Assembly: GCA_025774615.1 (NCBI GenBank) | Contig: JALGVQ010000015.1 | Location: 1 to 21,351, forward strand | From: a bacterium | GTDB taxonomy: Bacteria > Blakebacterota > Blakebacteria > Blakebacterales > Blakebacteraceae | Length of the DNA: 21,351 nt | Direction of reading: 5' to 3' | In this document: positions 5,187-18,286 of the stretch, piece after piece | How positions within the stretch are numbered: position 1 is the first letter of the stretch | Layout: each line of letters begins with the position of its first letter | The notes under the pieces: model-generated | What the model saw: only the letters and a program-made list of their open reading frames with translations | Databases searched by the model: none | Told to the model about the DNA's origin: nothing | Program-made: the position numbers and the translations under genes

Positions 5187-5255
5187 GTGAGCTTTTCCAC
5201 AAACCATTCAGAACGCGAACAAGTTTATCCAGAGGGATGGTGTCGAACAAGCAGG

Positions 5256-7310
5256 ATGAATAATACAAACGAGAATCAGCGACGCGGGATACCCCGCTGG
5301 CTCTACGGAGTCGGAGTGGCGGCGGTAGCGATCATCACCTTCATGATCCTCACCCGCCCCGGGGAAGGTACCGCTGTTGAAGAGCACCTGACGGTCGAGG
5401 TCGTTCAGGGTGAGATGGAGATCAGGGTCACCGGGTCGGGCCGCATAAGGGCGGCCAGGGCACGCGAGGTCGAGGTGCCTAATGATGTGGGGGGGGAGGT
5501 GCAGATCAACTTTCTGATCGACGAAGGTACCGTGGTGACGGCCGGGCAGGTTATTGCTGAGCTCGACACAGCGAATGCCGTCGAGGAACTGGAGAACGAA
5601 CTCGATGCGCTCGACACGACCGAAGCAGCCTACGAACAGCTTCTCGATGATCATATCAACAACATCAAGAACCTCGAGAACTCGGTCCGATCGGCTCAGA
5701 TAAGTCATGAACAGGCATTGCTCCAGCGGGAGAACCTGGAATTTTCCTCCGAACTGGAACAGCAGCAGGGTGACCTCAACATCGAAAAAGCCCGCATCTC
5801 CCTGAATGAAGCGAGGCGGAAGCTCGAAGCGCAGAAGATTATCAACGAAATGACCCGCCTGCAGTCCTTCAAGAACCTGGAAGAACAGCGGCAGGATGTT
5901 GTCGAGGTGAGGGCCGAACTGGCATCTCTCACGATCCGGGCTCCGATCGACGGAATGGTGATACATGCTGAACAGGGACGGTGGACAGCGCGGACCAAGG
6001 TCCGCGAGGGGGATCAGGTACGAAGGGGGCAGACGATTCTTGAACTGCCCGACCTCACCGAACTCCTGGTCGAGGTCAGGATCAATGAACTCGATGCTGA
6101 ACTGATCGAAGTCGGCCAGCAGGCCTGGGTCCGCCTGGAAGCGTATCCCCGGGTCCAGATTCCCGGCCGGATCATTGACATCTCCACCCTCGCCCAGGTA
6201 TTCCAGGGTAATGTCAAGGTATTCCCCGCCGTTATCCGGCTCGATGAGGCCGATCCGCGGGCGCGGCCAGGCATGACGGCCAGCGCCGACATCGTGGTTG
6301 TGCATCTGGAGGATGTGGTCCAGGTTCCGCTGGCTGCGGTGGGTGTAATGGATGGGCGTACCCACGTTCGACCGCATAATTCACATCAGCCGATAGAAGT
6401 CACCTTGGGCCTGTGGAACGAATCGATGGCGCAGGTGTTGGACGGGCTCGATGTAGGTGAAGAAGTCGACTTGGCCTGGCTTCAGAACCCGGCGGCGGTA
6501 CTGGCGACCCTGGCCGGCACCAAGGCGGTCCCGGATGAAGTCGCTCAGGCGATCATCTCCATGGGTGATGAGTACGGTGCAGCCAGCCCGGTGGTAGCGA
6601 TGGATCAGATGATGATGCAGGGTGGTGACGAGCGTTCCGCACGCGGCGGAGAAAGCCGGACACGGGGTATGGGGGAGGCGGGTGCCACTATGGGAGGATT
6701 CGACATGTCGCGGATCACGCCCGAGATGATGGAGCAGATGCGGCAGGGCGGCACAGAGCAGATGCAGGGTATTACCAGAATGGGTGCCGACAGGACAGGT
6801 GGCGCAGATGTGACGGGCGGTAGCGACAGGGCAGCTGGAACCAGCAGGACTCAGCAGGGTGGCGGGATGGCCGGCCGGTTCACTGAACTACTACAGGGGA
6901 GGCTCGACACCCTGCCAGCCGATCTGCGAGCCGAGGCGGAACAGTTGATGAGTGGCCAGGGGGATTTCCGTTCCATATCACAGGCGCTCCGTGACAGCCT
7001 GGGTATGGGAGGAATGAGACAGAGCATGCCGGGAGCGGCCGGACAGTTCACCATGGGAGCCGCGCCGGACAGTGCCGCCATGGCAGCAAGGATCGAACAG
7101 TTACGCGCGAAGCGCGATTCCCTGCCGGATGAGCTCAAGATGGAACTGGACAGCTTTATCGAGGGGGGAGCCAGTGATTTCCGGTCCCTCTCACCTGCCC
7201 TGATGGACAGTGTCCGGGCATGGGGAGTATTAGGCAGAAGTGGACGCCAGCGTACGCCTCCACCGCCGCCGGCAGATGAATCAGGTATATCCGGGAGGTA
7301 TCGGTCGTGA
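5256..7310 (+). CDS. Membrane-fusion (HlyD/MacA-type) efflux adaptor with long repeat-bearing C-terminal extension
   Basis: This 684-residue protein is a periplasmic adaptor anchored by one N-terminal helix (about residues 15-33). It then has a split lipoyl domain (GSGRIRAARAREVEVP... DEGTVVTAGQVIAELD), a long glutamate/glutamine-rich coiled-coil hairpin (about 105-220), the second lipoyl half (LTIRAPIDGMVI ... VREGDQVRRGQTILELPD) and the beta-barrel with RPGMTASADIVV. The conserved part ends near residue 420. The remaining ~260 residues are unusual for the family: a Met/Gly/Gln-rich stretch, then two related ~40-residue repeats and a proline run PPPPP near the end. Such adaptors bridge an inner-membrane pump and an outer-membrane channel. 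The frame is open to a GTG at 5187, but the residues before MNNTNENQ look non-coding, so the ATG at 5256 is preferred. Its stop overlaps the next gene's GTG by four bases. Confidence 0.88.
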   Translation: MNNTNENQRRGIPRWLYGVGVAAVAIITFMILTRPGEGTAVEEHLTVEVVQGEMEIRVTGSGRIRAARAREVEVPNDVGGEVQINFLIDEGTVVTAGQVIAELDTANAVEELENELDALDTTEAAYEQLLDDHINNIKNLENSVRSAQISHEQALLQRENLEFSSELEQQQGDLNIEKARISLNEARRKLEAQKIINEMTRLQSFKNLEEQRQDVVEVRAELASLTIRAPIDGMVIHAEQGRWTARTKVREGDQVRRGQTILELPDLTELLVEVRINELDAELIEVGQQAWVRLEAYPRVQIPGRIIDISTLAQVFQGNVKVFPAVIRLDEADPRARPGMTASADIVVVHLEDVVQVPLAAVGVMDGRTHVRPHNSHQPIEVTLGLWNESMAQVLDGLDVGEEVDLAWLQNPAAVLATLAGTKAVPDEVAQAIISMGDEYGAASPVVAMDQMMMQGGDERSARGGESRTRGMGEAGATMGGFDMSRITPEMMEQMRQGGTEQMQGITRMGADRTGGADVTGGSDRAAGTSRTQQGGGMAGRFTELLQGRLDTLPADLRAEAEQLMSGQGDFRSISQALRDSLGMGGMRQSMPGAAGQFTMGAAPDSAAMAARIEQLRAKRDSLPDELKMELDSFIEGGASDFRSLSPALMDSVRAWGVLGRSGRQRTPPPPPADESGISGRYRS
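6879..7217 (+). repeat. Two degenerate copies of a ~40-residue protein repeat
   Basis: Copy 1 (6879-7004) and copy 2 (7092-7217) of the first adaptor share the pattern R-x-D-[TS]-L-P-x-[DE]-L, then about 13 residues, then D-F-R-S-[IL]-S-x-A-L-x-D-S. By eye about 16 of 40 aligned positions are identical. They are separated by a Gly/Met-rich linker. The copies look like a degenerate internal duplication; I do not recognise the motif from any named family. Confidence 0.8.
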
Positions 7311-8704
7311 GTGTGTTCCAGAGATTGATGGCGGGAAAGAACGGAGACCGGAAGAAGATCACCCTCATCAGCGGGATCGGTCTGATCGTGGTGGTAGTAG
7401 CCGCGGTCACGCTCCTGGGGCCTTCTGGCGGCGCCAGAGAGGTGATGGCCGCTGAGGTGGAGGTCAGGGAGTTCGTATCCATCGTTGTAGAGAAGGGGGA
7501 ACTGAAAGCTGCCCGGACCGCGACATTCAATGCCCCCCGTCTGCGATATGGCGGCGGTCAGCTGATCCTGGCCCTCGCTCCCGAGGGGGAAGTGATCGAG
7601 ACCGGGGACCTGGTCGTGCAGTTCGACGAGGCGTCGCTTCTGGATCTGGTAGCAAACCAGCGGAGTGAGGTCGAGGAAGTGGAGTCCGAGTTGACCAAGA
7701 TGATCGCAGAGCAGGAGAGCCAGATGGCCAGCCTGCAGGCTTCTCTGGAGAATCAGCAGCATTCTTTCGCTCAGGCCGAGCTCAGGATACGGGCAATGGA
7801 GTTCGAATCGGAGATCGCCCGGATCCAGGAAGACTTCAACTACAAGAAGAGTGAACTTGCCCTCGAACGGGCGCAGGAGCAGCTCAATACCCAGATCCTG
7901 AGAGATCAGGTACAGCTCCAGCAGAGGCAGCAGACGCTGGACCGGGAGCGGCGTGAACTCACCGATCTTGAGGCGGAATTGGGAGCAGCCCTCCAGTACG
8001 CCGAGTACCCCGGTCTCGTCATCCATGAGAAGACCTATGGGCCCGAAGGGCAGGGTAAGGTAAGTGTGGGGACCACCGCCTACCCTGGTCAGGCGATCAT
8101 CTCCATTCCCGATCTGACAACCATGACGGTCGAGGTGGGGATATCGGAACTCGATATCCGCCGCGTGGCCATGGGGCAGAAGGCGCTGATCAGGGTGGAT
8201 GCCTATCCCGACGCCGTTTACACGGGGGAGATCACCGATATCAGTCCCCTGGCACGGCGATCCGGTCTTTCACAGATGAAGGTCTTCGACTGTGTCGTGA
8301 CCATTGACGGTACCGACCTCAGCCTCAGGCCAGGCATGACCGCCCAGGTGAGCATCATCACCCACTACCGGCCTGAAGCAGTCGTTGTTCCCCTCGACGC
8401 GATCTTCCGCCAGGAGGACCGTACGCTGGTGTTTACCGTGGGCAACAACATCGAGGAAGTCGACGTGGTCCTGGGCCCTGAGAACGGGAATTACGTTGTC
8501 ATCGAAGAAGGACTGGCAGCAGGAGTGAGAGTTGCTCTGCGTGATCCCTTCATGCCGCTGGAAGAACTAGAGACCGCCGGTATAGATGCCCTGCTGGCAA
8601 ACCGGGAGGCTGCCGGTGGACAGAGTGGAGACGTCGGCCAGATGGTGTTCCAGATGATGCGGGGACGTGGCGGTGGTGGTGATATGATGAGAATCTTCCG
8701 GTAA
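7307..8704 (+). CDS. Second HlyD-family periplasmic adaptor
   Basis: A 465-residue adaptor with a single N-terminal membrane helix (about 17-37), a first lipoyl half (VEKGELKAARTATFNAP ... EGEVIETGDLVVQFDE), a Gln/Glu-rich coiled coil (about 115-235), an atypical second lipoyl half (GLVIHEKTYGPEGQGKVSVG ... GQAIISIPDLTTM), and a beta-barrel with LRPGMTAQVSI. It belongs to the same broad family as its neighbours but is clearly diverged, so the three genes are old paralogues, not recent copies. The C-terminus ends in a short Gly/Arg/Met-rich tail (MMRGRGGGGDMMRIFR). The GTG start lies inside the previous gene's end in a GTGA overlap, which implies translational coupling. It ends 9 bases before the third adaptor. 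Partner transporter is inferred to be the permease at 10083. Confidence 0.87.
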   Translation: MSVFQRLMAGKNGDRKKITLISGIGLIVVVVAAVTLLGPSGGAREVMAAEVEVREFVSIVVEKGELKAARTATFNAPRLRYGGGQLILALAPEGEVIETGDLVVQFDEASLLDLVANQRSEVEEVESELTKMIAEQESQMASLQASLENQQHSFAQAELRIRAMEFESEIARIQEDFNYKKSELALERAQEQLNTQILRDQVQLQQRQQTLDRERRELTDLEAELGAALQYAEYPGLVIHEKTYGPEGQGKVSVGTTAYPGQAIISIPDLTTMTVEVGISELDIRRVAMGQKALIRVDAYPDAVYTGEITDISPLARRSGLSQMKVFDCVVTIDGTDLSLRPGMTAQVSIITHYRPEAVVVPLDAIFRQEDRTLVFTVGNNIEEVDVVLGPENGNYVVIEEGLAAGVRVALRDPFMPLEELETAGIDALLANREAAGGQSGDVGQMVFQMMRGRGGGGDMMRIFR

Positions 8705-8713
8705 AAGGTTATC

Positions 8714-10045
8714 ATGAAACTACTTGCAAGAAACAGGATGGTGCAGGCCGGGGTAGTACTGGTAGTGCTGCTGGTGATACTTGCCTCAGGTATGTTCCGG
8801 GACAAGTACAAGGATCTCCGCTATACCGAAGCGACCGAGGGCGAGTTCGTTCTCGATGTGATCGTACGCGGCGAGCTCCTTTCCGAGCGCTCCCGGAGTG
8901 TCGTTGCGCCCACGAGTCGCGGTATGCTTCAGCTCGTCTGGTTGGTGGAGGAAGGCGTCTACGTCGAGGAAGGAGACGTGGTCGCCAGGATCGACGAGTC
9001 GAGCATGTTGACCCAGCGCGAGTCACGCGAACTGCAGCTCGAGAACCAGGAGGCGAACCTCAATAACTTCCTGGCCAACAAACCGAATCAGATCAGGAGT
9101 TCTGGATCATCCCTCCAGACGGCACGATACGATCTTGAACTCGCCGAGATCAGACTCGGGCTCGCGGAGTTCGAGTCGGTCCAGCAGCAGGCGCAGCGCC
9201 AGCTTTCCTATGAGAATGCCCTCCTCAATGTGGATGAGGCCGAACGAAGCCTGGCTTCCCTGATCAACAAACTTGAAGTGGATGAGATGCGCCAGCGGAC
9301 GAGGATCCGGCAGGCCCAGCAGCGTCTCGATGACGTGATCGAGCAGATAGAGGCCTTCACCCTGCTGGCCCCGATCCCGGGGATCGTGGTCTTCGGCGAG
9401 ACATACGGCGGCGCGACCGAGGGGATGCGTAAGATACGGGCGGGTGACAACATCCACCGAGGCATGACGATCATCACCATCCCCGATCTCTCGGAGATGC
9501 TCTCGAAGGTCAACATCATCGAAGGTGATTACCGCAAGGTGGAAGTGGGTGATCCGGTCGAGATCAGACTCGACGCGATCCCCGGCCCCGTGTTCACGGG
9601 AAAGATCGACGCGATCGCTGCGCTGGCCAGTTTTGATGAAATGGCCAACAGGAGCTACTTCAATGCCGTGGTCCGGCTCGATTCCGTGGATGCCGGGATG
9701 CGCCCCGGAATGACCGCCAGCCTGCGCATCACCTACGAGAAACGCGAGAACGCGCTCTACATCCCGAATGAAGCGGTCTTCGAAGTCGATGGCAGAACCG
9801 TCGTCTTCCCGCGCAGGGACCTGCCCAGGCCGCGCGAGGTACGGCTGGGTGACCGGAACATGATGAGCGTTGTCGTACTCGAGGGGCTTGAGTTGGGAGA
9901 AGAAATATCCTTGATCGATCCGCGCACCCTTGAGGTGCAGGCCGAGGCTGGTTCACCGGTAACAGGTTCACCGTCCGGGCAGAAGAACCGGAGCCAATCG
10001 ACACCACCACCGCCACCGCCTTCAACAGGCCGGGGTGGACGGTAA
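8714..10045 (+). CDS. Third HlyD-family periplasmic adaptor
   Basis: A 443-residue adaptor. Residues about 10-27 form a hydrophobic anchor. The lipoyl halves are seen as RGELLSERSRSVVAPTSRG ... EEGDVVARIDES and FTLLAPIPGIVVFGETYGG ... IRAGDNIHRGMTIITIPD, separated by a coiled coil (about 100-220). The barrel carries MRPGMTASLRI, and a C-terminal membrane-proximal domain follows (NEAVFEVDGRTVVFPR). The final ~40 residues are low-complexity, rich in Ser, Gly and Arg, with PPPPPP just before the end, echoing the tail of the first adaptor. An AAGG ribosome site lies six bases before the ATG. It is separated by 37 bases from the permease gene, the largest gap in this operon. Confidence 0.87.
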   Translation: MKLLARNRMVQAGVVLVVLLVILASGMFRDKYKDLRYTEATEGEFVLDVIVRGELLSERSRSVVAPTSRGMLQLVWLVEEGVYVEEGDVVARIDESSMLTQRESRELQLENQEANLNNFLANKPNQIRSSGSSLQTARYDLELAEIRLGLAEFESVQQQAQRQLSYENALLNVDEAERSLASLINKLEVDEMRQRTRIRQAQQRLDDVIEQIEAFTLLAPIPGIVVFGETYGGATEGMRKIRAGDNIHRGMTIITIPDLSEMLSKVNIIEGDYRKVEVGDPVEIRLDAIPGPVFTGKIDAIAALASFDEMANRSYFNAVVRLDSVDAGMRPGMTASLRITYEKRENALYIPNEAVFEVDGRTVVFPRRDLPRPREVRLGDRNMMSVVVLEGLELGEEISLIDPRTLEVQAEAGSPVTGSPSGQKNRSQSTPPPPPPSTGRGGR

Positions 10046-10082
10046 CAGACCGACATCATCTGGATGATAAGGAAGAGCGACA

Positions 10083-11324
10083 GTGAATATCAGTGAGAGT
10101 ATCAATATCAGTGCTGGCGGTCTGAAGAGCCATAAACTCCGCAGTTTCCTCACCATGCTTGGTATCATCTTCGGGGTGGCGGCTGTGATCGCGATGCTCT
10201 CGATCGGTGAAGGGGCCAAGCAGGAGGCGCTTGAGCAGATCAAACTGATGGGGATCGACAACATCATCGTCCGTGACACCGGTGTGGTCGGGACCGATGA
10301 TGATGCTGAAGAGCAGCGGAGCAACTTCTCGCGCGGTATCACGCTGCAGGATGTAGCCGCCGTGGCTGAAGTACTGTCCAACACGATGGCGGTGGCACCT
10401 CAGAAAGAATACCTCCTCGATGTCACGTATGGAGATCTGACCCTTCCCGCCACCATTCTCGCCACCACACCCGATTATCCGCGCATCTTCACGTTCCGTG
10501 CCACCCAGGGTGCCTTCATCACCGATCTCGACATGCAGGAACGCTCCCAAGTCTGTGTCCTGGGAGCGAAGATCAAAGATCAGCTCTTCTACTACCGCGA
10601 TCCGATCGGGGAGAAGGTCCGTCTCGGAGAGGAATGGTTCACGGTAGTCGGGGTCATGGAAGAACGGGCGGTATCGGCCGGCACCAGCAGTGAGGTCGTC
10701 GACCGGGATGTGAACCTCGATGTCTACATTCCCCTCTCGAGTGCGTACTCACGCTTCCAGCTCTCCAGTTACGCCAGTCAGGTCGATCAGATCACGCTTC
10801 GGGTGAAAGAATCCGAGCAGATCGCTGAGAGCGCGGTTATCCTGAACCGGATGCTTCTCAGACGGCACAACGGAGTCCAGGATTTCAGGATCATCATCCC
10901 CGAGAAACTGATGAAGCAGAGTCAGGAGACGCAGCGGATCTGGGGAATCGTCATGGGTGCGATCGCCGGCATCAGTCTGCTGGTCGGCGGCATCGGGATC
11001 ATGAACATCATGCTCGCCACGGTTCTTGAGCGCACCAAGGAGATAGGTATCCGGCGGGCAGTAGGAGCGACCAGGCGTGATATCAGCACCCAGTTCCTGG
11101 TGGAGGCGATCTTCCTCTCCTTCCTGGGAGGGATCATCGGGATCGTTGTCGGTTTTACCCTCACCAAACTGATCAGCATATACGCCGGGTGGGCTACACT
11201 CGTGTCCGGGTTTGCGGTTGCGTTGGCGTTCTTTGTATCGGCCGGGATTGGGATCGTATTCGGATTCTATCCAGCGACGAAGGCGGCGAAGCTGGATCCT
11301 ATCGAGTCCCTCCGCTACGAATAA
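10083..11324 (+). CDS. MacB/FtsX-type ABC transporter permease
   Basis: A 413-residue inner-membrane protein with the MacB permease layout: a first helix after a short N-terminus (KLRSFLTMLGIIFGVAAVIAM, then SIGEGAKQEALEQIK), a large periplasmic domain (about 50-285), and three C-terminal helices beginning with the family hallmark GGIGIMNIMLATVLERTKEI and GIRRAVGATRRDI, ending in PATKAAKLDPIESLRYE. MacB-type pumps use ATP to expel lipids, peptides or macrolides through an adaptor and an outer-membrane channel. MacB itself fuses an N-terminal ATPase, but this protein starts directly with the membrane part, so the ATPase must be a separate gene; none lies in this window. The GTG start has an AGGAAGAG-like site upstream. 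It is the last gene of the plus-strand operon and converges with the next gene over 16 bases. Confidence 0.9.
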   Translation: MNISESINISAGGLKSHKLRSFLTMLGIIFGVAAVIAMLSIGEGAKQEALEQIKLMGIDNIIVRDTGVVGTDDDAEEQRSNFSRGITLQDVAAVAEVLSNTMAVAPQKEYLLDVTYGDLTLPATILATTPDYPRIFTFRATQGAFITDLDMQERSQVCVLGAKIKDQLFYYRDPIGEKVRLGEEWFTVVGVMEERAVSAGTSSEVVDRDVNLDVYIPLSSAYSRFQLSSYASQVDQITLRVKESEQIAESAVILNRMLLRRHNGVQDFRIIIPEKLMKQSQETQRIWGIVMGAIAGISLLVGGIGIMNIMLATVLERTKEIGIRRAVGATRRDISTQFLVEAIFLSFLGGIIGIVVGFTLTKLISIYAGWATLVSGFAVALAFFVSAGIGIVFGFYPATKAAKLDPIESLRYE

Positions 11325-11340: not shown

Positions 11341-12774
11341 TTACTTGTGGCGTGCGATGATCAGCCAGGAGAGGCCGACAGGGGGAGTGATCCAGCGTTC
11401 CAGCTTCACCAGCGGCATGAAGAGTTTGAAGACCCGGATCTGCCAGGGACTGATCTGTGAAGAGCCCGAGAACAGACGCCCGAACCACCAGCCGATAGCT
11501 CCAATGAAGTTCACCTGAACGATCCTTTCAGCACTCAGTTCTGCCTCATCCAGCAATGAATGGATCGATTTACGGGTAAACCTCCGGGAACGTCCCAGTC
11601 CCCGATCGACGGAGCTGAAGAGGGCCTGATGGGCGGGGAGGAGCAGAACCATGTTGCCCTCTGGTTTCAGGTGGGCAGCCATCGCTGTCAGGGCCGTGCC
11701 CTCATCCTCAAAACATGCCATGCTGTGGAACGCGATCACCGTATCAAACCGTTCCGGTGGTGAACTGAACGGCCCGGTGCAGGGATCCCACTGTGCCACT
11801 TCCATATTCGGCCGATGGGAGAAGCTGATCCGGAGTCGTTCTGTCTCCCCGTCTCGAGGATCGGTGAGTAGCACGCGAGTCCCCTGTGAGAGGTGGCGGG
11901 CGATCTCGCCAGCCCCGGAAGCAACTTCCAGGATGCTGTCACCGGGAAGGGGTCTGATCCTTCTCAGTAGTTCGGCGTAGTAGGACCCGAGTCGGCTGAG
12001 AGCAAACCGGGTGACCGATTCGGGAGATGTTACCGGTGTCTCAAGAAGCCCGGCCCGCAGGATCGTTCCCATCGCCCGGATCGCGTCTCTCCATCCGATC
12101 TTTTTCCCCTCCTCATACGATCGTCCTGAATAGCGGATCGGTATTTCATAGATGCGCTGGCCCAACCGGCCGAGTTTGACCGTCACTTCCGGTTCATACC
12201 CGAAGCGCTCCGATCTCAACCGCATCTCCTTCAGCGTGGCCGTTCGGACCACTTTGAAGCATGTCTCCATGTCGGTGAGGTTGAGGTTGGCGAACATGTT
12301 GGCCAGTGCGGTCACCAGTCGATTTCCCAGAGCGTGCCAGAAGAACAGGACCCTCCGTTCCGGAGAGAGGAAACGCGATCCGTACACCGCATCAGCCCGA
12401 CCATCAAGAATGGGAGCAAGCAGTGCCGGAATGTCACCAGGGTCGTATTCGAGGTCGGCGTCATAGATGAGGGTGAGTGTACCCGTGGCCGCTTCAAGAC
12501 CGGTACGTATCGCAGCGGTTTTCCCTTTGTTACGCTCGTGTCGGAAGAGAAGGAACGGGAGCGGACTTTCCTCTTTCAGTCGGCCGGCTATTTCCCAGGA
12601 GGCGTCAGAAGAACCGTCGTCGACCAGGATGATCTCGGTCTCCAGGGGATAGGACATCGACCAGAGACGATGGATAGCCTCACGGAGCGTGGCAGCCTCA
12701 TTGAATGACGGGACGATGATCGAGAGGGATTCGTCAGGCGGTTGTGAGAGCGTCTGACCGTGCGGGTACTCCAT
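11341..12774 (-). CDS. Bifunctional GT2 glycosyltransferase / class I methyltransferase
   Basis: The 477-residue protein fuses two enzymes. Residues about 15-240 are a GT-A-fold family 2 glycosyltransferase of the dolichol-phosphate-mannose-synthase type: SIIVPSFNEAATL, ILVDDGSSDAS, NKGKTAAIRTGLEAA, the DxD-like YDADLEYDP, then GSRFL, CFKVVR, GYEPEVTVKLG and the IPIRYSGRSYEEGKKI segment. Residues about 275-430 are a SAM methyltransferase with motif I ILEVASGAGEIARHL and a late-strand DTVIAFHSM. No transmembrane pair is evident, so it is probably cytoplasmic and membrane-peripheral. It likely transfers a sugar to a polyprenyl phosphate, with the second domain methylating an unknown acceptor. 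It follows the small HTH gene by 7 bases on the same strand. No clear ribosome site precedes its ATG, which suggests translational coupling. Domain fusion of this kind is known in bacteria. Confidence 0.9.
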   Translation of the reverse strand: MEYPHGQTLSQPPDESLSIIVPSFNEAATLREAIHRLWSMSYPLETEIILVDDGSSDASWEIAGRLKEESPLPFLLFRHERNKGKTAAIRTGLEAATGTLTLIYDADLEYDPGDIPALLAPILDGRADAVYGSRFLSPERRVLFFWHALGNRLVTALANMFANLNLTDMETCFKVVRTATLKEMRLRSERFGYEPEVTVKLGRLGQRIYEIPIRYSGRSYEEGKKIGWRDAIRAMGTILRAGLLETPVTSPESVTRFALSRLGSYYAELLRRIRPLPGDSILEVASGAGEIARHLSQGTRVLLTDPRDGETERLRISFSHRPNMEVAQWDPCTGPFSSPPERFDTVIAFHSMACFEDEGTALTAMAAHLKPEGNMVLLLPAHQALFSSVDRGLGRSRRFTRKSIHSLLDEAELSAERIVQVNFIGAIGWWFGRLFSGSSQISPWQIRVFKLFMPLVKLERWITPPVGLSWLIIARHK

Positions 12775-16844: not shown

Positions 16845-17498
16845 TTACATCAGTGAAACAGTCAGGTCGCCGTCACTGATCTCGATAACCGTTCCATGTC
16901 CCCTGGCGGCCATTCCTCCATTTACAACCAGGGTTTCACCGATCATATCGGTCCCCCGCGCTTCATGAATATGTCCACAGACCACGAGCTCGGGCTGATC
17001 CTTCTCGCAGAATTCACGGAACATTCGAACACCGGTATGCATTCCAAGGAGGGTTCTGTCGCATTTCGTGCGGTACGGTGGCGCGTGGTGTACCACAATA
17101 CGCGTTGACGCGCCCTGAATCTGCTGCCAACCGGCATCCAGTGATGCGGAGAGTTCTTCTTCAGTGTACTCCAGTGGTGTCCCGAACGGGGTTCGGTTCG
17201 ATCCCGAAACGCCGCAGATACCGATGGAATCCCCTATCATACGCCCACGCCCGTTCAGGGAGATGCCCTGATCCGTCAGGAACGACTCGATCGCCAGGGA
17301 ATCACAATTCCCGGCTATCGCGAAGCAGGAGGCATTATAGCGGGCGATATCGTCGATGATGGCAGCTACATCTCCAGGAGTGCCAAAACTGGTCAGATCC
17401 CCACACAGAAGTATGGTATCGACCGTCTCTGCGGCAGCAATGAGCTCCGAGGTCCACTTCACCGAACCATGTATGTCACCCAGGGTGAGGAACGTCAT
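16845..17498 (-). CDS. Calcineurin-like metallophosphoesterase
   Basis: The 217-residue protein has the full set of metal-binding motifs of the calcineurin-like phosphoesterase fold: GDIHG near the N-terminus, GDLTSFG, GNCD, then VVHHAPP and GHIHE. It resembles YfcE/UPF0025-type and archaeal-type small phosphoesterases, which hydrolyse phosphodiester or phosphomonoester bonds using two metals; the natural substrate is unknown. The ATG at 17496-17498 gives a classical ATGA overlap with the PIN-domain gene's stop. An in-frame GTG at 17507 would add three residues. It is the last gene of an antitoxin-toxin-phosphoesterase operon, so it might act with, or counter, the PIN ribonuclease; that link is only contextual. 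Confidence 0.9.
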   Translation of the reverse strand: MTFLTLGDIHGSVKWTSELIAAAETVDTILLCGDLTSFGTPGDVAAIIDDIARYNASCFAIAGNCDSLAIESFLTDQGISLNGRGRMIGDSIGICGVSGSNRTPFGTPLEYTEEELSASLDAGWQQIQGASTRIVVHHAPPYRTKCDRTLLGMHTGVRMFREFCEKDQPELVVCGHIHEARGTDMIGETLVVNGGMAARGHGTVIEISDGDLTVSLM

Positions 17499-17923
17499 TT
17501 CAGCCACAGAACCTGGATTTCTTCCTCAAGACGCCGGAATGCCAGGTCGCCCGTCATGACCGGACACGACTGACTCTGTGCCAGGCTTGCCGCGAAGCAA
17601 TGCCCGTTGGCCATATGGAATTTTTCCCGGAAATGGCTCGCACTCCGGACCAGATTCATGTCCATATTGACGATCTCGATAGGGAGCTGGTCGAGTACGT
17701 GAGTCGCTTCCTGGGCGCTTTTTTCGCCCTTTGTTCTCAGAATGCTGTAATAGACCTCACCCCAGTTGACGATGGTCATCATGCACTCGAGCCCGCCCTG
17801 TTCGGCCATGCCGAGCGCATTGGCTACGAAGTCGGCACCCGGTTCCCCCTCAAAATATGAGAGCATCGCGTGACTATCGAGCACCAGCTGCCGGGAGGTG
17901 ACCGGTTCGAAGGGCGTGCTCAT
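17495..17923 (-). CDS. PIN-domain toxin (VapC-like) with altered active site
   Basis: A 142-residue PIN-domain protein, the ribonuclease half of a VapBC-type toxin-antitoxin pair. The fold is seen in VLDSHAMLSYFEGEPGA (first acidic residue Asp16), TIVNWGEVYYSI (Glu56) and PVMTGDLAFRRLE (Asp126). The helix that normally reads [AS]-D-[CA]-F-A-A-x-x-A with the third essential Asp reads NGHCFAASLA here, with His108 in that place. This could lower metal binding or activity. It is preceded by an AbrB-type antitoxin gene whose stop overlaps this ATG (ATGA), and overlaps the phosphoesterase gene in the same way, so all three are likely cotranslated. VapC toxins usually cleave tRNA or rRNA; the target cannot be predicted. 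Confidence 0.88.
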   Translation of the reverse strand: MSTPFEPVTSRQLVLDSHAMLSYFEGEPGADFVANALGMAEQGGLECMMTIVNWGEVYYSILRTKGEKSAQEATHVLDQLPIEIVNMDMNLVRSASHFREKFHMANGHCFAASLAQSQSCPVMTGDLAFRRLEEEIQVLWLK

Positions 17924-18150
17924 GCGAGACTACCCTCCCGCCGCTCTCTCATCAGTTCCTGAATGGATGACTGCCCCCCCCTGAACAGCCCTTTGGCCTG
18001 GTTCACAGCATCCTGTAAAACAGGTCTGAGAATGATCTCTCCATCGCCATCCACGACATTCAGTCGGGTACCCTGCACGATACTGTACTTGCGGCGCAGT
18101 TTTGCCGGGATGACAATCTGACCCTTGGATGATGTATTCACGATCGGCAT
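17920..18150 (-). CDS. AbrB/MazE/SpoVT-type antitoxin (VapB-like)
   Basis: A 76-residue swapped-hairpin AbrB-type protein: the N-terminal DNA-binding part reads MPIVNTSSKGQIVIPAKLRR, followed by YSIVQGTRLNVVDGDGEIILRPV. The C-terminal ~25 residues (AVNQAKGLFRGGQSSIQEL...) are the usual toxin-binding tail. Such proteins neutralise the PIN toxin and repress their own operon. The ATG at 18150 has GGAGG seven bases upstream and begins exactly at the domain; the longer frame to 18231 is not domain-like. Its stop overlaps the PIN start. GTAAG repeats and a candidate promoter lie upstream. Confidence 0.9.
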   Translation of the reverse strand: MPIVNTSSKGQIVIPAKLRRKYSIVQGTRLNVVDGDGEIILRPVLQDAVNQAKGLFRGGQSSIQELMRERREGSLA

Positions 18151-18211
18151 GGTCCAACCTCCATCCGCAGGGAATACAGAACAGGAACGAAATGCCCCAT
18201 TTCGGAACAAA

Positions 18212-18286
18212 GTAAGAATATAGCACGACAAATCTGAAATGTAAGAGAGTAATGCATCAGGTAAGAATGATTATCCAGGAGTAAGT
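18212..18286. repeat. Phased GTAAG direct repeats
   Basis: GTAAG occurs at 18212, 18241, 18261 and 18281. The last three are spaced exactly 20 bases apart, about two helical turns, and the bases between show partial resemblance (CATCAG before one, TCCAGGA before the next). They overlap or flank the likely antitoxin promoter, so they may be operator half-sites for the AbrB-type antitoxin. Confidence 0.45.
18217..18245 (-). promoter_or_regulatory. Candidate promoter of the antitoxin-toxin operon
   Basis: On the minus strand CTTACA (18245-18240) and TATATT (18222-18217) are separated by 17 bases. The -10 box matches five of six and the -35 four of six consensus positions. Transcription would begin about 60 bases before the antitoxin ATG. 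Confidence 0.35.

Follow-up and report, generated by a model that had tools for sequence, protein, structure and literature searches.

The window (the whole stretch of 21,351 nucleotides that was analysed) is contig C238 of the metagenome-assembled genome G000 (3.3 Mb, 82 % complete, 324 contigs). When its open reading frames were compared with Pfam and NCBIfam, an operon of four genes was observed, all on the forward strand (5256-7310, 7307-8704, 8714-10045 and 10083-11324). The first three genes encode MacA/HlyD-type adaptors, here named A1 (684 aa, ATG start; the mechanical ORF starts at 5187), A2 (465 aa, GTG) and A3 (443 aa, ATG), and each of them matches both HlyD_D23 and HlyD_3. The fourth gene (413 aa, GTG) encodes a permease that corresponds to MacB without the N-terminal NBD. 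The A1 and A2 genes overlap by 4 nt (GTGA), which suggests that their translation is coupled, while A2 and A3 are spaced by 9 nt and A3 and the permease gene by 37 nt. The first-pass annotation had described three diverged adaptors in tandem, an overlap of the first two genes and an FtsX/MacB permease without its ATPase domain, and all of these were borne out by the reading frames and the domain matches. Judged by its gene content, the operon probably encodes a MacAB-type machine for export across the cell envelope, which lacks a gene for the ATP motor and has three different, putatively tube-forming adaptors.

On both sides the operon is flanked by unrelated genes on the opposite strand, a gamma-glutamyltranspeptidase gene and a glycosyltransferase-methyltransferase gene. 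The latter (11341-12774, reverse strand) encodes a family 2 glycosyltransferase fused to a methyltransferase domain and is kept as the convergent neighbour in the related genomes G001 and G002. A PIN-domain and MazE/AbrB-type gene pair, representing a VapBC-like toxin-antitoxin module, was also observed in the window (17495-18231, reverse strand).

The phylum of the window genome is represented by four genomes in the comparison set. In the genus sister G001, all four genes are intact and share 80, 87, 88 and 96 % identity (A1, A2, A3 and permease, respectively). In the family member G002, the surviving part of the operon matches and the contig end cuts inside A2. The order of three adaptors and a permease, for which a search in related genomes had been proposed, was thus found complete in the former and partial in the latter. 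When codons were compared between G000 and G001, the dN/dS values were 0.13 (A1), 0.07 (A2), 0.08 (A3) and 0.017 (permease). As these values are low at all four loci, the genes are considered to be functional and not relics. The operon could otherwise be read as a degenerate MacAB operon that lost its ATPase gene locally, by deletion or misassembly, and the bare absence of that gene is the one point in favour of such a loss. However, the arrangement recurs in the two sister genomes, purifying selection is strong and the ATPase is missing across about 20 families (see below), which leaves this explanation with a negligible probability. Local deletion of the ATPase was ruled out by the relatives; ATPase-carrying relatives had been named beforehand as the observation that would point to a deletion, and none in the ATPase-less group carries an ATPase gene in the operon.

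Fold and coupling helices of the permease

The permease (10083-11324, forward strand) matched MacB_PCD (5.6e-42) and FtsX (1.5e-20) in the Pfam search, in which a match to ABC_tran was absent. It has the four TM helices of a MacB-type permease and aligned to MacB residues 256-646 (3e-75). Therefore, the missing part is exactly the N-terminal NBD. The best Foldseek match of its AF2 model (mean pLDDT 83) was MacB (5gko_A, TMq 0.80), and the assignment as a MacB/FtsX-type permease without NBD also agrees with the permease tree described below.

The absence of an adjacent ATPase belongs to the definition of the ADOP family as well. Matches to the ADOP model were obtained for the C-terminal half of the permease (1.1e-37) and for all 30 group members tested. 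However, the score is 129.6 against a cut-off of 622.3, the MacB match is better, and the protein consists of a single 413-aa permease unit with no internal duplication. We consider it very improbable that the gene encodes an ADOP-family orphan permease with unusual adaptors. When the whole genome G000 was searched, 72 MacB_PCD matches were obtained, most of them in ORFs of 750-950 aa; they form a large set of paralogues that are duplicated permeases of the ADOP-like kind.

In MacB, the NBD is contacted by two coupling helices, the major one located between TM2 and TM3 and the minor one C-terminal (PMC5985334). The AF2 model of the window permease predicts both. The major coupling helix (aa 318-327; 11034-11063, forward strand) lies inside the loop ERTKEIGIRRAVGA, and the minor, C-terminal one (aa 406-411; 11298-11315, forward strand) lies in LDPIESLRYE. 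When 43 ATPase-less permeases were compared with 32 ATPase-linked permeases, the conservation of the major coupling loop was 3.04 versus 3.11 bits and that of the C-tail was 3.24 versus 3.41 bits, respectively. The loop pattern ERTxEIGIRRAxGA is equally conserved in both sets, and R317, E320, G322, R325, G328 and A329 are found without exception in the 43 ATPase-less permeases. From fold and conservation together, the retained coupling helices are predicted to be capable of NBD docking, and this suggests that selection preserves the surface on which a motor docks, although the gene for that motor is absent from the operon.

Distribution of the ATPase-less group and candidate ATPases

With a match threshold of E<=1e-84, related permeases were found in 34 genomes of a 386-genome sample; the genomes compared are mostly MAGs. 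Twenty-five of these genomes, belonging to about 20 families, carry the ATPase-less type. In another eight, the related permease is accompanied by an ATPase and by no more than one adaptor, and in the remaining one the ATPase is absent, yet the permease groups with the ATPase-linked ones. The ATPase-less group under study consists of 43 permeases from about 20 bacterial families, and none of the 43 is adjoined by an ATPase gene, two of them lying at contig ends where the upstream side is unseen. In the permease tree, 41 ATPase-less rows fall on one side of a branch with moderate support (SH-aLRT 85) and two more are placed beside it; the ATPase label changes 6 times on this tree versus 25 times when labels are shuffled.

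In another phylum, 18 of 39 genomes carry a permease with 43-50 % identity, mostly in the order adaptor-permease-OEP and in no case with an ATPase. An OEP gene adjoins the permease in most relatives and is absent from the window operon. When a plasmid collection was searched, the only relatives had 39 % identity or less, and several of them adjoin an annotated ATPase. In the open-licence literature, no account of ATPase-less MacB permeases with several adaptors was found, and prior art elsewhere is possible. The group is widespread and apparently undescribed.

FtsX-type permeases and MacB-class ATPases were also listed in 13 genomes and paired when they lay within 8 kb of each other. Family f39 showed one pattern in 9 of 9 genomes: the ATPase-less permease has no ATPase partner, and a MacB-class ATPase beside an OEP gene is left as an orphan (unambiguously in eight). 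The other unpaired genes in this family are LolC or LolD, or FtsX, with the exception of one extra unpaired ATPase in G044. The orphan ATPase gene and the OEP gene form a conserved pair with neither an adaptor nor a permease gene (G041-G049; L301 and L342-L349). A co-occurring ATPase, as the first-pass annotation had proposed to look for, is therefore present throughout f39. No spare ATPase was found in the near-complete genomes G185, G382 (single contig) and G009. There, the ATPases are all paired with permeases of their own, and the ATPase-less permeases remain without a partner (in G009, one further permease is unpaired as well). Thus, borrowing is indicated in these three genomes, and a dedicated orphan ATPase in every genome was ruled out. 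Operons with one ATPase and at least two permeases are common in the genomes analysed, which makes it plausible that one ATPase serves several permeases. In G169, a lone ATPase is present, but two MacB-class permeases are unpaired.

In the ATPase tree, the f39 orphan ATPases form a separate clade. By the AU test, their union with the MacB-operon ATPases was neither rejected nor favoured (p 0.39), and their union with the G169 orphan was not rejected (p 0.36). The f39 orphan as a proven remnant of a MacB operon was dropped because of the separate clade and the former p value. Given this clade, the motor in other genomes may be a different ATPase. The candidates in the window genome, as far as its 324 contigs and 82 % completeness go, are the ATPases of C195 (adaptor-ATPase-permease-permease) and C320 (adaptor-ATPase-ATPase). 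A MacA-like adaptor with two tandem MacB-class ATPases was observed in G000:C320 (L141:5687-8377), G001:C408 (L142:3509-8550) and G003:C69 (L143), and in G001:C408 the tandem ATPases are followed by an OEP gene and the start of an ADOP-like permease. Dozens of orphan ADOP permeases are encoded in the genome, and a locus of the C320 type may provide them with NBDs.

The finding that an ATPase is present in no operon with readable flanks, together with the near-complete genomes in which a spare one is missing, would also fit a system without ATP hydrolysis, in which the permease and its adaptors would act as a sensor or would span the envelope as a passive or structural bridge. This is quite improbable in our judgement. 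The NBD-docking helices are conserved as in ATPase-linked permeases, with R325 fixed in 43/43, the f39 genomes retain an otherwise partnerless MacB-class ATPase, and the permease has a dN/dS as low as 0.017.

Structure and multiplication of the adaptors

A1 (5256-7310, forward strand) is a MacA-like adaptor of the 'first' type with an N-terminal TM anchor, a long alpha-hairpin and a 260-residue C-terminal tail, according to Pfam, AF2, Foldseek and the adaptor tree. Its AF2 model (mean pLDDT 77) contains a TM helix (aa 14-33) and two hairpin helices (aa 106-163 and 166-224; about 58 residues), and the top Foldseek matches were MacA in MacAB-TolC (9qgy_G and 5nik_D). Together with the hairpin measurement, the model places the alpha-hairpin at about aa 105-229 (5568-5942, forward strand). 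The tail (6516-7307, forward strand) is Gly/Met-rich and predicted to be largely disordered (pLDDT <50 over much of it); it is conserved in G001 and includes two short diverged helical repeats (aa 538-581 and 606-656). Proline runs are found near the end of the A1 tail (TPPPPP) and near the end of A3 (STPPPPPP).

In the adaptor tree, in which some forks are moderately supported (80-81), A1 and A3 (8714-10045, forward strand) group with each other and with the 'first' adaptor of two-adaptor operons, so that A3 is also of the 'first' type. A2 (7307-8704, forward strand) is referred to as the 'core' adaptor. It falls together with the adaptor that comes last in two-adaptor operons, and its grouping with the single adaptors of other ATPase-less operons is less firm. 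Operons with two or three adaptors make up 15 of 42 in the ATPase-less set versus 0 of 26 in the ATPase-linked set (Fisher p=2.4e-4, relatedness ignored), and the tree suggests at least four separate expansions. Two ATPase-less multi-adaptor operons per genome were seen in G185 (L234 and L241; one with two adaptors, the other with three) and in G237 (L231 and L232). Adaptors occurring singly elsewhere had been expected to count against an unusual system, and this turned out to be half true, as in another phylum a core adaptor of the A2 type is the sole adaptor beside the same permease. One adaptor therefore suffices in those lineages, and the extra adaptors are later, repeated additions.

When hairpins were measured with a fixed definition, A1, A2 and A3 each had 125 residues, at a hairpin identity of just 22-23 %. 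Hairpin lengths within multi-adaptor operons are equal in 26 of 26 pairs (125, 126 or 145 residues; core identity 25-46 %), whereas the hairpins of ATPase-linked adaptors range from 33 to 370 residues. Among pairs at 25-40 % core identity, equal length was found in 52/473 for ATPase-linked adaptors and in 697/1173 for ATPase-less adaptors overall, the latter varying less in length as a whole. Inside the window genome, the hairpin lengths are 125 (window operon), 95 (C195) and 129 (C320). In a simple pattern search, the TolC-binding motif R-x3-L-x6-S was not found in the A1-A3 hairpins. Equal hairpin length is what one mixed tube needs, and it suggests such a tube here; it may in part have been inherited from duplications within lineages.

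Alternatively, with the ATPase likewise acting in trans, A1, A2 and A3 could form separate homohexamers. These could replace one another on the permease or serve other pumps, depending on the substrate or the outer-membrane channel. In line with this arrangement, the long tail is unique to A1, and in other lineages the core adaptor is the only one beside a permease of this type. On the other hand, hairpins of the same operon are equal even though the lineages differ (125, 126 and 145), those of different systems in the same genome differ, a single permease accompanies the adaptors, and the A1 and A2 genes overlap. Separate homohexamers are thus rather unlikely, and a mixed tube is preferred.

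Proposed assembly and comparison with known systems

We somewhat favour, as the best explanation of the whole, a MacAB-like (type VII ABC) trans-envelope machine with its NBD supplied in trans and with a mixed adaptor tube. The permease would form the usual dimer, and MacB-class ATPase subunits encoded elsewhere (in the window genome, the candidates are that of the MacB operon on C195 and those of C320) would dock on the retained coupling helices and drive the periplasmic domain by mechanotransmission. A1, A2 and A3 would together build a single mixed hexamer as the tube, plausibly (A1A2A3)2, since a ratio of three adaptors to one permease would match six adaptor subunits on a two-fold permease dimer. 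An outer-membrane channel, probably encoded elsewhere in the window genome and beside the permease in most relatives, would cap the tube. The first-pass annotation had named two alternatives, a mixed hexamer on the one hand and adaptors that work with several pumps, an ATPase being shared, on the other. Sequences and models point to the mixed hexamer and the ATPase from elsewhere jointly, and adaptors for several pumps are not favoured. It is unlikely, in our view, that machines of this class as a rule require two or three different adaptors, each at a fixed place in the tube, and either share a promiscuous MacB-class ATPase among permeases or, in the extreme case, work ATPase-free as a trans-envelope conduit.

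The textbook tripartite ABC pump has one adaptor and a permease with its own motor. A deep and widespread group in which the motor-docking surface is conserved, the motor gene is missing and adaptors were multiplied repeatedly would imply that the motors of type VII ABC systems can be exchanged and that an adaptor tube may be heteromeric, each adaptor having its defined position. Two questions become testable: whether several permeases, among them the numerous 'orphan' ADOP permeases, have MacB-class NBDs in common, and how a tube with six-fold symmetry is seated on a two-fold transporter.

The window operon shares with the type VII pump MacA-MacB-TolC (E. coli 5NIK and A. baumannii 5GKO) the permease fold with its periplasmic core domain and four TM helices, the major and minor coupling helices and the adaptor fold, the MacA-like adaptor being present threefold. 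However, it has no fused or adjacent NBD, three diverged adaptor genes instead of one, and no outer-membrane channel gene in the operon. LolCDE also has the type VII permease fold but no adaptors, and the window permease scores 53.1 bits with lolCE against a cut-off of 362.45. ADOP proteins (TIGR03434) are FtsX/MacB-type permeases without an adjacent ATPase, as in the window operon, but they comprise two permease units in about 800 aa, whereas the window permease is single and has its own adaptors.

The MsmK-type ATPase is common to streptococcal sugar importers, whose permeases without their own ATPase use it in trans (PMC4519317). These systems are importers of another fold class, whereas the window operon belongs to the MacB-class trans-envelope type and would share an ATPase only by the reading proposed here. 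TriABC-OpmH, an RND pump of P. aeruginosa with two adaptors (PMC8277102), likewise has more than one adaptor gene per operon; there, two adaptors accompany an RND transporter, whereas in the window three accompany an FtsX/MacB permease.
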